This document shows, one piece after another, positions 1-19,569 of a stretch of DNA of 36,011 nucleotides. A model generated the notes under the pieces. The model did not search any database. It was not told the DNA's origin and saw nothing but the letters and a program-made list of their open reading frames with translations. Numbering within the stretch: position 1 is the stretch's first letter; every line of letters begins with the position of its first letter. The position numbers and the translations under genes were made by a program. The DNA is from a virus: IMG/VR virus record IMGVR_UViG_3300046169_000092, positions 1 through 36,011 of that record. One strand, 5' to 3'.

Positions 1-167
1 CAATCGGCTTCAAGTTCCTGCGCTCGCAATGGATCGAAACCGGCAAGTACATAACAGTAGTATGTATATGCACCGCCAATTTCAACCACTAGGTCATTAG
101 GTGCGAGCAAGTCTAATGACTCTAAAGTACTCCGACTCCATTGGAAGGTACTTGTCGCCTGTTCGTA
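1..167 (-). CDS. Frameshift extension of the tail assembly chaperone (GT-like), runs off the window start
   Basis: This frame is open from the T-run slip site (167-173) to base 1 and has no ATG of its own, so it is probably read only by -1 slippage from the ORF at 122-523. Joined to the other end of the window it continues in the same frame and ends with TAA at 35945-35947. The extension would be 77 residues, beginning YEQATSTFQW and ending AYHKPKDK, and the fusion would be 196 residues (119+77). Siphoviruses commonly make a G and a GT chaperone this way just upstream of the tape measure, which is exactly where this lies. The frame, slip site and join are seen directly; the chaperone role comes from gene order. 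Confidence 0.72.
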
Positions 168-523
168 AAAAAATCCCACGCTTCCTCAAGCGTCCCAAGC
201 TCCAAGTCATCCGATTTCCAAGTGGCATCAGTAATTTTCTTATCTAGCTTCAAGCAGTGTTGCGCTGTGTACTTACAGTATTTAGCTCGAAACTCTTCGT
301 CTAAACGCCAGGCGTTCAGTGCATCAAGATCTTCCATCGTGTAATCATCAACAGAAGCCTTATCGTCTTCTAGCTTCTCATGAAGTTTAGGATGGTTTTC
401 CTTGTACCAGCCCAAGAGCATTTGTCTGCGCTCTTCGACTACCTTATCAAAACGAATAGGGGTCGGCTTGACTTCAAACCGAACCCCCATAAATTCGCCT
501 GTTACTTTTGTAATACGTCCCAT
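122..523 (-). CDS. Tail assembly chaperone (G-like, short frameshift partner)
   Basis: This is a 133-residue charged, mostly helical protein with ATG at 521-523 and TAG at 122-124. It lies between the tail-tube-like genes and, through the joined ends, the tape measure gene, which is the usual place for the tail chaperone that holds the tape measure protein before the tube polymerises. Residues 117-119 (DFF) are encoded across GAT TTT TTT, a perfect slippery run; 14 codons follow in the zero frame before the stop, while the -1 frame stays open. There is no recognisable domain, so the function rests on position and on the frameshift arrangement. Confidence 0.7.
   Translation of the reverse strand: MGRITKVTGEFMGVRFEVKPTPIRFDKVVEERRQMLLGWYKENHPKLHEKLEDDKASVDDYTMEDLDALNAWRLDEEFRAKYCKYTAQHCLKLDKKITDATWKSDDLELGTLEEAWDFFTNRRQVPSNGVGVL
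125..173 (-). promoter_or_regulatory. Programmed -1 frameshift site with downstream stem-loop
   Basis: On the minus strand the heptamer T TTT TTT (173 to 167) lies in phase for simultaneous slippage of the codons TTT TTT. Thirteen bases downstream is a stem-loop: AAGTAC (153-148) pairs with GTACTT (130-125), with a smaller inner CTTCC/GGAG stem. The -1 frame continues for 77 codons and the zero frame stops at 122-124. The site is seen directly; its use and efficiency are inferred. Confidence 0.7.
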
Positions 524-1962: not shown

Positions 1963-2388
1963 TTAGCTAGATGTTAAACCGTCAGTAGCTTTAATAACTT
2001 CTAATGTTCCAGTTAATACTGTCTCTACTCTTCCGTTGCTATAATCTTGATAACCATTTAGATAGATAGCACCAGTTTGTATGTTAAAAGAGTTGGTGGC
2101 TCCAACGAATCTTACAAAAGTTTTAGAGGGAAGAGTTCCATTGGTAGAAACATGAGCGCTAGATAATATAGCATCTGTTTTGCTTCCAGTTAAACTTGTG
2201 GATTTGCTTCTCATTTCAATGTTTACCGTATAAGACTCATTTATTACCTGACCATCATCAACTGTTACTTGATTTGGTTCTATAGTTGGTAGAGAAGCCT
2301 CAACGACAACATTTTCTATATCGCCCTCATCAGCGTTATAGTTATTAGCATTTGATAAGGTTACCTTATCTAATATAAATTTTGCCAT
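1963..2388 (-). CDS. Tail-tube-like protein, shortest paralogue
   Basis: This 141-residue, beta-rich protein has the conserved PNQVTVDDGQVINESY segment near residue 38 and the GYQDYSNGRVETVLTG block near residue 114. Both recur in the next gene and the first recurs in the one after. At 141 residues it is within the size range of minimal siphovirus tail tube proteins. It starts 15 bases after the tail-terminator-like gene. The tail-tube assignment is from gene order and the beta-rich composition. Confidence 0.55.
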   Translation of the reverse strand: MAKFILDKVTLSNANNYNADEGDIENVVVEASLPTIEPNQVTVDDGQVINESYTVNIEMRSKSTSLTGSKTDAILSSAHVSTNGTLPSKTFVRFVGATNSFNIQTGAIYLNGYQDYSNGRVETVLTGTLEVIKATDGLTSS

Positions 2389-8527: not shown

Positions 8528-8911
8528 ATGGCAAACACTCCAGCAAAACCAGCCCTATACAGCCGAGTTAAATCTGAGGCTAAACGTAAGTTCAAGATAT
8601 TCCCTAGTGCGTATGCTTCTGCGTGGATAGTAAAGGAATACAAGAAAAGGGGTGGAACCTATAAAGGCAAGAAGTCAGGTACAACTGGTGTAGCCCGATG
8701 GATGAAAGAAAAGTGGAAGACCCAAGACGGACAGGCTTGTGGCTCTGCTAAATTTAAAGGAGTGAAGAAGTGTCGACCTACCGTTAAGGTTTCCTCTAAG
8801 ACCCCAGTAACGTGGCAAGAACTGCGTAAACGTGGCGAGGGTAAGAAAGCAGTACGTGAAAAGAGACGGGTTGGTATGGGTAAACGAGCTAAATCTATAA
8901 AGAGAAGTTAG
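8528..8911 (+). CDS. DUF5872-like basic protein
   Basis: This 127-residue, very basic protein has the family order: KSEAKRKFKIFPSAYASAWIVKEYKKRGGTY at about 15-45, WMKEKWKTQ, a Cys-containing link, CRPTVKVSSKTPVTWQEL, then an Arg/Lys-rich tail. I recognise this as the DUF5872 type found in marine phages and algal viruses, with no known function. It lies 29 bases after the nuclease gene on the same strand. Its stop overlaps the stop of the minus terminase nuclease gene (TTAG, 8908-8911). Confidence 0.7.
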   Translation: MANTPAKPALYSRVKSEAKRKFKIFPSAYASAWIVKEYKKRGGTYKGKKSGTTGVARWMKEKWKTQDGQACGSAKFKGVKKCRPTVKVSSKTPVTWQELRKRGEGKKAVREKRRVGMGKRAKSIKRS

Positions 8912-9693
8912 CGGAGCACATACATAGGGGAGGCGGAGCCTCTCTCATTACGCCAGATAGCGTAATCAGTAGCATCGGACATGTGACCCCTGTCGCCATT
9001 GTCGATTTTTAGCCCTTTATCATTAACGATGGAATACATATAGTCTTTTATGACGTGTTCGCAGCGTGTGTTTACAAGCAATCTACGCTCCCCATTGGTT
9101 CCAGCGTAAATTACGTTGTTTACCTTGTCTACACGCACTTTTCTCTTAGGATTTTGGATGTCTAGCTCGTTTTTATACAAAATATCGTTCTCCTCAAAGA
9201 CTTCTCGCACGTAGTCCCAGTCATTTTTGCCTACACGACCATAATTGCCACTTTTTTGGTTGGAAGTGTTGTCTCCAGCTAATAAAACCTTTGAGATGCC
9301 CCATTTATTTAGTAATTCTACCGCTTTTAGGGCTTGCTCGGTGGTTAGAGCCTCTTTGGAGAAGATTTCATCGAAAATAAGGTACTGCTTAAGTCCGTTA
9401 CGAGCTCTTTTAACTTGGAGAAGAGCCCAACAATGAGGAGACCTGTTGAAATCAGCACAAAGCCAGACAGGATAGCCAGGATCGTAATCAAGAGCCGTAA
9501 GATTCCCATCAGGGTAGTGATTGTATCCGTCAAAGTGTTTATAAGCCTTTCTCGTTGGGTCATCTGTTTCCTCGCTCATTTCGTATCCAAGTTTATACGA
9601 CAGAAAGTCCATCGCTTCCTCTTGGAGTAGCCGTTGTTTACTGTGATTAGTTTCCCATAAGGGAATGTCCCAGACCTTATCTGGTTCTCTCAT
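8908..9693 (-). CDS. terL: Large terminase, nuclease subunit (C-terminal half)
   Basis: This 261-residue protein has the RNase H-like nuclease order of TerL: VWLCADFNRSP (Asp81), LLAGDN (Asp141) and GHMSDATDYAIW (Asp240/Asp243), the acidic residues that hold metal and cut concatemers. It has no ATPase motifs; those are in the gene at 10019-10831. The two halves are separated by a 115-residue resolvase-fold gene, with 4-base overlap at the upstream end (ATGA). The product may assemble with the ATPase subunit (inference). Ends converge on the plus DUF5872-like gene. Confidence 0.75.
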   Translation of the reverse strand: MREPDKVWDIPLWETNHSKQRLLQEEAMDFLSYKLGYEMSEETDDPTRKAYKHFDGYNHYPDGNLTALDYDPGYPVWLCADFNRSPHCWALLQVKRARNGLKQYLIFDEIFSKEALTTEQALKAVELLNKWGISKVLLAGDNTSNQKSGNYGRVGKNDWDYVREVFEENDILYKNELDIQNPKRKVRVDKVNNVIYAGTNGERRLLVNTRCEHVIKDYMYSIVNDKGLKIDNGDRGHMSDATDYAIWRNERGSASPMYVLR

Positions 9694-10037
9694 AATCTAC
9701 TGAATAATGTTTGCATGACAGCACCGCTTTCAATAAAGTAGACAGGCACACCTGCATCGTCACCCTCCGCTATTAAGGACATTGCACCTGAATGGTGCTG
9801 GTGTAATGTTTTAAGGTCGTATGTCAGGATTGCCCATCCATTTTTTCCGCATTCTTTTATAATTTCGTGTATCGCCTTAGAGTTTTTGTGCTTGGCTAAT
9901 ATTTCCCACTTTTGACCGACAAGTTCAGCTTCTATCATATCCAGAAACTCATCCATCTTATTTTTTATTTGATTTATTTCCTCTTGCTGTACCTTTAGCC
10001 CAAATCTGGCATACATAACTACTTTAGATTGTTCCAT
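9690..10037 (-). CDS. Resolvase-fold protein between the terminase halves, catalytic Ser missing
   Basis: This 115-residue protein looks like the N-terminal domain of serine recombinases: KVVMYARFG at the first strand, QQEEINQIKNKMDEFLD helix, then GWAILTYDLKTLHQHHSGAM with the D-x-L-x-R-like position, and GVPVYFIESG. In true resolvases the first strand is followed by Ser (YAR-V/Y-S); here it reads YARFGL, so the nucleophile is absent. There is no DNA-binding domain. It overlaps the ATPase gene by 19 bases and the nuclease gene by 4. It may be an inactive structural relative, perhaps part of the packaging motor. The fold assignment is moderately sure and the role unknown. Confidence 0.45.
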   Translation of the reverse strand: MEQSKVVMYARFGLKVQQEEINQIKNKMDEFLDMIEAELVGQKWEILAKHKNSKAIHEIIKECGKNGWAILTYDLKTLHQHHSGAMSLIAEGDDAGVPVYFIESGAVMQTLFSRL

Positions 10038-10831
10038 TCTTCCACCTCATATCCTGTTTTGTCTTCTTTTACCGAAATCTGTAACACATTAAATATCCCA
10101 GACTTCATTAATCTACTATTAGCGTCATTAGGATGATATGGGGTGCATACACTCAAAACAATACCTTTATCATGAACTCTCTTAATCCATGTATTAGATA
10201 CTTTGTTCCATACGGTTTCCCTACGAGCAGTGGATATTCTGTCTTCATCGTTACACACATCATCAAGAATAAGAACACCAGCTCGCTGTCCTGTGGTTTG
10301 GGTTAGTACGGCATACGCCTCATAAGTGGGGTTACCTGTGCGGTTACGGCTTTTAACAATAATGCGTTGAGTCGAACCTGTATCGGTGCGGTCAAATTCA
10401 ACAGGATTAAAGTTGTGCTCTTTGCACCAGTACCTGTACATATCACTCTGGAATAGGGCTCGTAGAGACAATATTCTCTTGGTAGAGATGCCACCGTCAG
10501 CCGATACTATTAGGGTTTCTAGCTCGTGCTTACGTGTGGTCATGTATGCAGACAGACCAATGGGAACTTGTTGGGACTTTCCCGTGTTGTAGGGCGCTCT
10601 AATCAATCCATTGAGACGAGCGTTCTTGGATAAGGCTTGTTGCTCCCAGTCGTAGATGCCCTTCTGCATCGTGTGATGAATCTGAGCTTGGGTTACCTTA
10701 AACCCATCTTGATCAGCTAAACAGTTTTCGATAAAAGAATTACGTAGGTCTAGCGAGTCAGGGGGTGGCTCGTGTCCTACGACATTGACTAATAAGTCTG
10801 ACCAGTTATTCTTTTTCGGTTTTTGGCTCAT
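10019..10831 (-). CDS. terL: Large terminase, ATPase subunit (N-terminal half)
   Basis: With the start at ATG 10829-10831 (270 residues; an in-frame ATG at 10891 adds 20) the protein has Walker A APYNTGKS at about 79-86, Walker B VLILDD at about 186-191 followed by VCNDED, and a coupling-motif-like SVCTPYHPNDANSRL near 230. These define the packaging ATPase. There is no RNase H-like nuclease part; it is in the next but one gene. The start overlaps the upstream zinc-ribbon gene by 26 bases. The longer start would overlap by 86 bases, which is why the shorter one was preferred. Confidence 0.8.
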   Translation of the reverse strand: MSQKPKKNNWSDLLVNVVGHEPPPDSLDLRNSFIENCLADQDGFKVTQAQIHHTMQKGIYDWEQQALSKNARLNGLIRAPYNTGKSQQVPIGLSAYMTTRKHELETLIVSADGGISTKRILSLRALFQSDMYRYWCKEHNFNPVEFDRTDTGSTQRIIVKSRNRTGNPTYEAYAVLTQTTGQRAGVLILDDVCNDEDRISTARRETVWNKVSNTWIKRVHDKGIVLSVCTPYHPNDANSRLMKSGIFNVLQISVKEDKTGYEVEEWNNLK

Positions 10832-11003
10832 AGGCTCGTTTGCATATGGGGCACTGCACCTCGCACCGTTTACCAGTAGATACTTCACCAAGACACTTAA
10901 ATATGCGTGCTTTGTTTTTTAGGGGTACGGGCTTAGGTATAAAGTTTTCTTTCATTTCAGGAAATATGTAGCGTTTAATGTTATTTGAGTTTGAGCCGTT
11001 CAT
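10806..11003 (-). CDS. Small zinc-ribbon protein
   Basis: This 65-residue basic protein has Cys37, Cys47, Cys51 and Cys54 (KCLGE ... RCEVQCPICKRAY), a plausible zinc knuckle. An internal Met17 (10955) is an alternative start. It overlaps the coiled-coil gene by 23 bases upstream and the terminase ATPase gene downstream. Position next to terminase suggests a role in packaging or DNA binding, but this is inference. Confidence 0.55.
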   Translation of the reverse strand: MNGSNSNNIKRYIFPEMKENFIPKPVPLKNKARIFKCLGEVSTGKRCEVQCPICKRAYEPKTEKE

Positions 11004-15049: not shown

Positions 15050-15172
15050 GCACATACATTGCACATATACACATATATTGTACATATATCGCACATATAT
15101 TATACATATACACATAAATCATACATGCTTTATACATATATTATACATATACACATATATTGCACATACATC
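15050..15172. repeat. AT-rich array of about twelve ACATATAT-type units
   Basis: Units of 9-11 bases follow one another: gcacatacatt, gcacatatac, acatatatt, gtacatatatc, gcacatatatt, atacatatac, acataaatc, atacatgcttt, atacatatatt, atacatatac, acatatatt, gcacatacatc. The period is close to one DNA turn. It lies directly beside the C-rich repeats (15195-15340) and is easy to melt. An open frame through it (14940-15137, minus) translates to a repeat peptide and is not treated as a gene. Confidence 0.85.
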
Positions 15173-15194
15173 GTGCCAGGGGGGTCACCCTATA

Positions 15195-18665: not shown

Positions 18666-18748
18666 TCCCAACCCTAATAATAGCCCTTATCATCGTCTCC
18701 GTGGTGGTAGGGGCTTCTTTATCATATGAAAGGAGTCAAAAATTATGA
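18662..18748 (+). CDS. 28-residue membrane peptide
   Basis: The ORF MIPTLIIALIIVSVVVGASL then SYERSQKL is almost entirely one membrane segment with a basic tail. Its start overlaps the stop of the upstream gene (ATGA) and its stop overlaps the methylase start (ATG at 18745), so it exactly fills the gap. The Shine-Dalgarno-like AAAGGAG inside it (18729-18735) serves the methylase. Such a wedge between two genes argues for translation. Function unknown. Confidence 0.5.
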   Translation: MIPTLIIALIIVSVVVGASLSYERSQKL

Positions 18749-19569
18749 TGACACACGGATCATTATTTTCAGGAATTGGGGGCTTTGATTTAGCCTCAGA
18801 GTGGATGGGATGGGATAACCTGTTTCATTGTGAGTGGGAGAGCTTTCCACGTAAAATTTTAAATTATCATTTTCCAAAATCTATATCGTATGGCGACATC
18901 AAAGAAACAGACTTCACTATTTGGCAAAGAAAAATTGACATCCTCACAGGAGGATTCCCATGCCAACCATATTCAGCCGCAGGAAAGCGACTCGGAAAAC
19001 AAGACGAGCGCCACTTGTTCCCAGAAATGCTTAGAGCAGTTCGAGAAATTCAACCACGTTGGGTCGTGGGCGAAAACGTTCGTGGGCTTGTTAGTTGGAA
19101 TGGAGGGTTGGTATTCGAAGAGGTGCAAACTGACTTGGAAGGTGAAGGGTACGAAGTACAACCGTTCCTACTTCCAGCTGCTGGCGTCAACGCCCCGCAC
19201 AAAAGGGACAGAGTATGGTTTATTGCTTACGCCATTGAGGGACGTAGCACAAATGCTTCCGACTCCAACTTGCTCGGACAAGAACGGCTCCGGATCAATA
19301 GAGTCGCTCAAGAAAAGGGGCAGGGGCGAGAACAACGATTTAGCGAGTTGGGCAACTTACAATACAAATGGGAAGAATGCTCAACTCAACCCCCTATTTG
19401 TTGCGGAGATGATGGGATTCCCAGAGAATTGGACTCTATTACCTTTTCTAAATGGAGAAGAGAATCAATTAAAGGATATGGAAACGCAATAGTCCCACAA
19501 GTTGCTTTTCAAATATTTAAAGCAATCAATCAGTATGAGCAAATCCAAAGGCAAAAGAACCGTAACTAA
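18745..19569 (+). CDS. dcm: C5 cytosine DNA methyltransferase
   Basis: This 274-residue protein has the C5-methylase motifs in order: FSGIGGF (I, 8-14), GGFPCQPYSAAGKR (IV, Pro72-Cys73 nucleophile), ENVRG (VI, about 110-114), HKRDRVWFIAY (VIII, about 152-162) and GYGNAIVPQVA (X, about 244-254). It is short, with a small target-recognition region (about 165-235). It probably methylates phage DNA against host restriction. A clear AAAGGAG lies upstream, rare in this genome. A second ORF (18890-19492) overlaps it in the +1 frame and also looks protein-like. The 3' end overlaps the next gene by 35 bases. Confidence 0.85.
   Translation: MMTHGSLFSGIGGFDLASEWMGWDNLFHCEWESFPRKILNYHFPKSISYGDIKETDFTIWQRKIDILTGGFPCQPYSAAGKRLGKQDERHLFPEMLRAVREIQPRWVVGENVRGLVSWNGGLVFEEVQTDLEGEGYEVQPFLLPAAGVNAPHKRDRVWFIAYAIEGRSTNASDSNLLGQERLRINRVAQEKGQGREQRFSELGNLQYKWEECSTQPPICCGDDGIPRELDSITFSKWRRESIKGYGNAIVPQVAFQIFKAINQYEQIQRQKNRN
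18890..19492 (+). CDS. Alternate-frame ORF inside the methylase gene, conserved type
   Basis: This 200-residue ORF lies wholly inside the methylase gene in another frame. It reads as a real protein: Ser/Gln-rich start (TSLFGKEKLTSSQEDSHANH), CSQKCLEQFEKFNHVGSWAK, MEGWYSKRCKLTWKVKGTKY, YGLLLTP..., CSDKNGSGS and LNPLFVAEMMGFPENWT near the end. I recall very similar proteins (EDSHA..., CLEQLEKFN, MEGWYST-RCKLTWK, LLPTPTASD, LNPLFVEEMMGFP) overlapping methylases in Bacteroides and phages, and the last block is a known C-terminal piece of some C5 methylases. Dual coding is likely, but translation is unproven; the memory-based similarity needs a search. Confidence 0.5.
   Translation: MATSKKQTSLFGKEKLTSSQEDSHANHIQPQESDSENKTSATCSQKCLEQFEKFNHVGSWAKTFVGLLVGMEGWYSKRCKLTWKVKGTKYNRSYFQLLASTPRTKGTEYGLLLTPLRDVAQMLPTPTCSDKNGSGSIESLKKRGRGENNDLASWATYNTNGKNAQLNPLFVAEMMGFPENWTLLPFLNGEENQLKDMETQ

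Follow-up and report, generated by a model that had tools for sequence, protein, structure and literature searches.

Does the gene that immediately precedes the tape measure gene of an uncultured virus of bacteria encode one protein, or is a second, longer product made by a shift in reading frame? The window analysed here, by which we mean the whole stretch of 36011 bases (an IMG/VR virus record), poses this question on its minus strand, which was rebuilt across the joined window ends and translated. An ORF of 133 residues (523-122, zero-frame stop TAG at 124-122; denoted G) carries near its 3' end an in-phase T TTT TTT heptamer (173-167, codon phase GAT TTT TTT ACG). A -1 shift at this heptamer adds 77 codons (denoted T), which run from 167 to 1 and continue across the join (36011-35945) to a TAA at 35947-35945, 6 bases before the ATG (35938) of the tape measure protein (878 aa, 35938-33302, minus strand; phrog_9483 tape measure, E 1.1e-12). 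The predicted fusion has 196 aa and the junction peptide AWDFFYEQATSTFQWSR (DFF-YEQ junction). The heptamer, the open frame across the window ends and the position of its stop had been proposed in an earlier sequence-only reading, and translation bears out all three. The same reading stated that the alternate frame has no ATG; this holds over most of the extension, but Met codons occur near its end, and GTG at 179-177 begins a -1-frame ORF just upstream of the slip site.

No terminal repeat was found in the window. Contigs 93-96% identical to it are contiguous at this point, the aligned fusion passing through without a gap, and because these close relatives run through the join we regard it, as that reading had assumed, as sound. 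Among the 39 in-phase slippery heptamers in the genes of the window (second triplet A or T), the one at 173-167 is alone in being followed by a -1 frame open for more than 24 codons (77 codons versus 24 for the next best).

The arrangement recurs in related IMG/VR contigs, 49 of which came from a search with the fusion and which number 55 after alignment-based searches. The matched stretches are 3n-1 bases long. All 55 share the break at one place, and the -1 arrangement is thus not due to chance; neither a single-frame fusion nor a premature -1-frame stop, each of which had been named beforehand as evidence against a frameshift, occurred in any of the 55. In the 53 closer relatives T7 lies at the same codon, with identical position and phase, and the -1 frame stays open to just before the tape measure. 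Two distant relatives (L184 and L123, ∼54% identity) retain the arrangement with T8 and TTTTTTC, respectively, changes solely to other X_XXY_YYZ forms. The window and all 55 relatives hence have a canonical in-phase X_XXY_YYZ heptamer, U_UUU_UUU or U_UUU_UUC. Since L123 has retained the arrangement with TTTTTTC, the slip site tolerates U_UUU_UUC, and the ‘all-T slip site’ of the sequence-only reading, correct for the window, the 53 closer relatives and L184, is not obligatory and is better written U_UUU_UUY. One further contig (L249) was rejected as a relative: it matched by chance, in another gene with a frame that resembles a portal protein.

Artefactual frame breaks are common at homopolymers, and a break of this kind would also result from errors in sequencing or assembly, or from gene decay. 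With 55 contigs from many metagenomes sharing it, assembly error is excluded, and the explanation as a whole, decay included, can for practical purposes be discarded: both G and the T extension are under purifying selection, with dN/dS values (45 distinct fusions) of 0.12 for G before the element described below and 0.10 for T after it.

Around the slip site the constraint also acts on synonymous positions. The frequency with which the same codon is used is 0.34 at fusion codon 110, 0.87-1.0 for most codons within 111-144, and 0.41 at codon 145. These limits define a block of ∼ 101 nt (193-93, minus strand), and when codon order was permuted 0 of 20000 orderings gave an equally conserved block. 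Double coding explains the constraint between the slip and the zero-frame stop. It does not explain that past the stop, as only one frame codes there, and this portion is significant on its own (p 5e-5). The likeliest reason for the constraint on either side of the slip-to-stop stretch would be an RNA signal, and we treat the block as a candidate frameshift cassette.

SD-like motifs upstream of the heptamer are common stimulators at bacterial -1 frameshift sites. In the window, a GAGG (187-184) ends 10 nt 5' of the slip site. L044-like contigs and the two distant relatives have GAGGAGG or AAGGAGG ending 7 nt before the heptamer, so that an SD-like motif (GAGG or AAGGAGG) ends 7-10 nt upstream in all sequences; the duplex energy with the anti-SD is -6.2 for the window, compared with -11.6 to -12.1 for the L044-like contigs and distant relatives. 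For SD-like stimulators of -1 frameshifting a spacing of 9-14 nt is given (PMC5009743). We suggest that GAGG acts as a frameshift stimulator. The 56 homologous sites show what selection keeps here, namely the heptamer class, the SD-like motif and an RNA block with sharp limits. A possible hairpin that encloses the motif, ACGCTT-GAGG-AAGCGT (193-178), was rejected as a stimulator, as L044-L047 and the distant relatives have lost it.

The same GAGG could be read as a ribosome-binding site, with T made as a separate protein from GTG at 179-177 (TTG in other relatives) without any frameshift; the -1 frame does have a GTG or TTG at this spot, closely preceded by an SD-like motif. This codon, however, is a by-product of an Ala-Trp pair (GCN TGG) and is never ATG, and the AAGGAGG of L184 and L123 lies only 1 nt from the TTG, too close for initiation. 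We therefore disfavour internal initiation, which would in addition leave the conserved heptamer and the downstream constrained block unexplained, and consider it very improbable. Slightly more probable, if still quite unlikely, is transcriptional slippage, in which RNA polymerase would add a U on the T7 run and the longer mRNA would be translated normally into the fusion. The coding strand does present a homopolymer of 7, and UUUUUUU may cause mRNA indels (PMC4066793). Run length is not kept, however, since L123 has T6 followed by C; this interrupted run, together with a constrained block that extends 74 nt beyond it, argues against the polymerase, and both the block and the SD-like motif kept upstream point to ribosomes. 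What the window and its relatives have in common is an extension reached by a -1 shift near the end of G, with no efficient start of its own. We favour ribosomal slipping at the T run, both the event and its efficiency being inferred.

Canonical X_XXY_YYZ sites have their stimulatory structure ∼ 5-9 nt downstream of the heptamer. A downstream structure of some form is likely at this site. The stem-loop named in the sequence-only reading (AAGTAC/GTACTT, 153-148 with 130-125) exists and begins 13 nt after the slip, but it is not the best-conserved structure: across 22 distinct sequences 91.7% of cells are paired, and four of its six pairs are each broken in two or three sequences. The long spacer to this stem, which that reading stressed, is unlikely to be the one that functions, and the ∼ 101-nt block appears likelier than the stem to be the RNA signal. 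Better kept is an 8-bp hairpin 3' of the zero-frame stop (GTCATTAG/CTAATGAC, 120-113 with 100-93), which is 100% paired (all 22 sequences). It has one compensatory change, in L036, where A-U replaces G-C and both substitutions are synonymous. The strand GCGACAAG (158-151) lies 8 nt past the slip and can base-pair with the loop of this hairpin (CTTGCTCGC, 111-103), giving a possible pseudoknot. No covariation was found for the pairing of GCGACAAG with CTTGCTCGC, which is partly broken in some relatives; the RNAalifold consensus lacks the 120-93 hairpin and prefers another structure, and in the window nested folding of the downstream region yields no better energy than shuffled sequence does. 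Given this lack of a nested energy excess and the RNAalifold preference, we regard the pseudoknot as a candidate only. In L184 and L123 a strong hairpin starts 6-7 nt past the slip, and a second one comes after it.

We speculate that slipping is driven by an elaborate, lineage-specific element of ∼ 101 nt, composed of the SD-like motif, the upstream hairpin by which this motif may be masked, the U7 run, and a pseudoknot between the strand 8 nt after the slip and the loop of the hairpin beyond the zero-frame stop. This proposal is tentative, and we think it less probable than not. If true, it would amount to a complexity not usually ascribed to G/GT sites.

What the two products do must be judged mainly from where they are encoded. 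The lambda-type G/GT -1 frameshift of tail assembly chaperones has been reviewed, and its architecture is widely conserved in long-tailed phages despite low sequence similarity (PMC5009743). Neither G nor T was recognised by any model in Pfam, PHROG or NCBIfam, and no chaperone model matched GT. For G, 25 homologues were aligned. Its AlphaFold2 model (pLDDT 84) has a β-hairpin followed by helices, and the T part was modelled poorly (pLDDT 60). Fold matches of G in BFVD are weak, several being named tail assembly chaperone (best such E ∼ 0.1), and a fold search of the PDB gave nothing usable. Since no model matches and the fold matches are weak, the chaperone name rests mainly on gene position and frameshift architecture, and the function is assigned by analogy. 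On these grounds it is highly probable that the locus encodes a G/GT-type (lambda-type) pair of tail assembly chaperones through a -1 frameshift; the siphovirus G/GT pattern recognized in the sequence-only reading is supported by the -1 arrangement in 55 of 55 relatives and by the position before the tape measure. In the G/GT class the major tail protein gene lies upstream of G; in the window the genes at that place (547-1449, 1454-1951 and 1963-2388) match no model. Two of these adjacent tail-region genes (1454-1951 and 1963-2388, minus strand; no PHROG match) look like paralogues and contain a repeat family (D6, 75% identity over 56 nt).

In the mechanism we propose, most ribosomes would read the zero frame and yield the 133-aa G, and a minority would slip back by one base at the codons UUU UUU (172-167), where both tRNA-Phe, one in the P site and one in the A site, could re-pair on U_UUU_UUU. 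Translation would then go on in the -1 frame for 77 codons to give the 196-aa GT fusion. The SD-like GAGG and a downstream structure (hairpin 120-93, possibly in a pseudoknot with 158-151) would stimulate the slip. By analogy with lambda, G would coat the tape measure and the T part would recruit the tail-tube protein. In the G/GT class the fusion is made at a few percent of G and is absent from the virion.

The locus resembles lambda G/GT in that the gene lies directly before the tape measure, the shift is in the -1 direction, the slip is near the 3' end of G and T ends just before the tape measure. It differs in its U-run heptamer, the slip sequence of lambda being GGGAAAG, and in the ∼ 101-nt conserved RNA block that reaches past the zero-frame stop; sequence homology is undetectable. 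A frameshifted tail chaperone with a U-rich slip is reportedly found also in the FETUD tail operon of phage P2 (Christie, 2002, as cited in PMC5009743). The slip sequence there is said to be T_TTT_TTG, and P2 is a myovirus. The frameshift cassette of Escherichia coli dnaX combines an SD-like motif, a heptamer and a 3' stem-loop (PMC5009743); here, too, an SD-like motif ends 10 nt before the heptamer and there is a candidate structure on the 3' side, whereas the slip codons specify Phe and not Lys, the product is longer and not shorter, and the 3' structure is putative. U_UU.U_UU.C, the heptamer class of L123, is among the more efficient frameshift motifs used by IS elements (PMC4066793), in which, however, the genes are those of transposases, proteins unrelated to G/GT. 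A -1 slip that makes two versions of a tail-building helper is a well-known trick of tailed phages and the principle is unchanged by our analysis. The locus is a well-supported addition to the natural frameshift sites, and comes from a phage lineage for which no cultured relative was found: searches for relatives of G/GT gave none in cultured phages or in bacterial or archaeal genomes, and those for the tape measure, portal and capsid gave none in cultured phages. It further indicates that there are tail chaperone genes which escape HMM libraries, and the fusion would escape gene callers.

Elsewhere in the window, an SD-like motif precedes 10 of the 29 gene starts checked, and this low share may point to a host in which SD sequences are little used, as in Bacteroidota. 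By similarity no host was singled out, the helicase and terminase resembling, at 23-29% identity, phages that infect many different hosts. The large terminase (8908-10891, minus strand) is divided into two polypeptides, an ATPase of 290 aa (10891-10019) and a nuclease of 261 aa (9693-8908), which are separated by a 115-aa gene that belongs to no known family; related contigs spanning this stretch preserve the order, additional sequence being inserted in some of them. On the plus strand two frames overlap (18745-19569 and 18890-19492), the 200-aa ORF lying wholly inside the 274-aa one, and most of each is covered by a match to a DNA methyltransferase family (phrog_363, E 1.9e-73, and phrog_1008, E 4.7e-22). 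At 15052-15173 an A+T-rich unit of 41 nt occurs three times in tandem and may represent an origin or operator.
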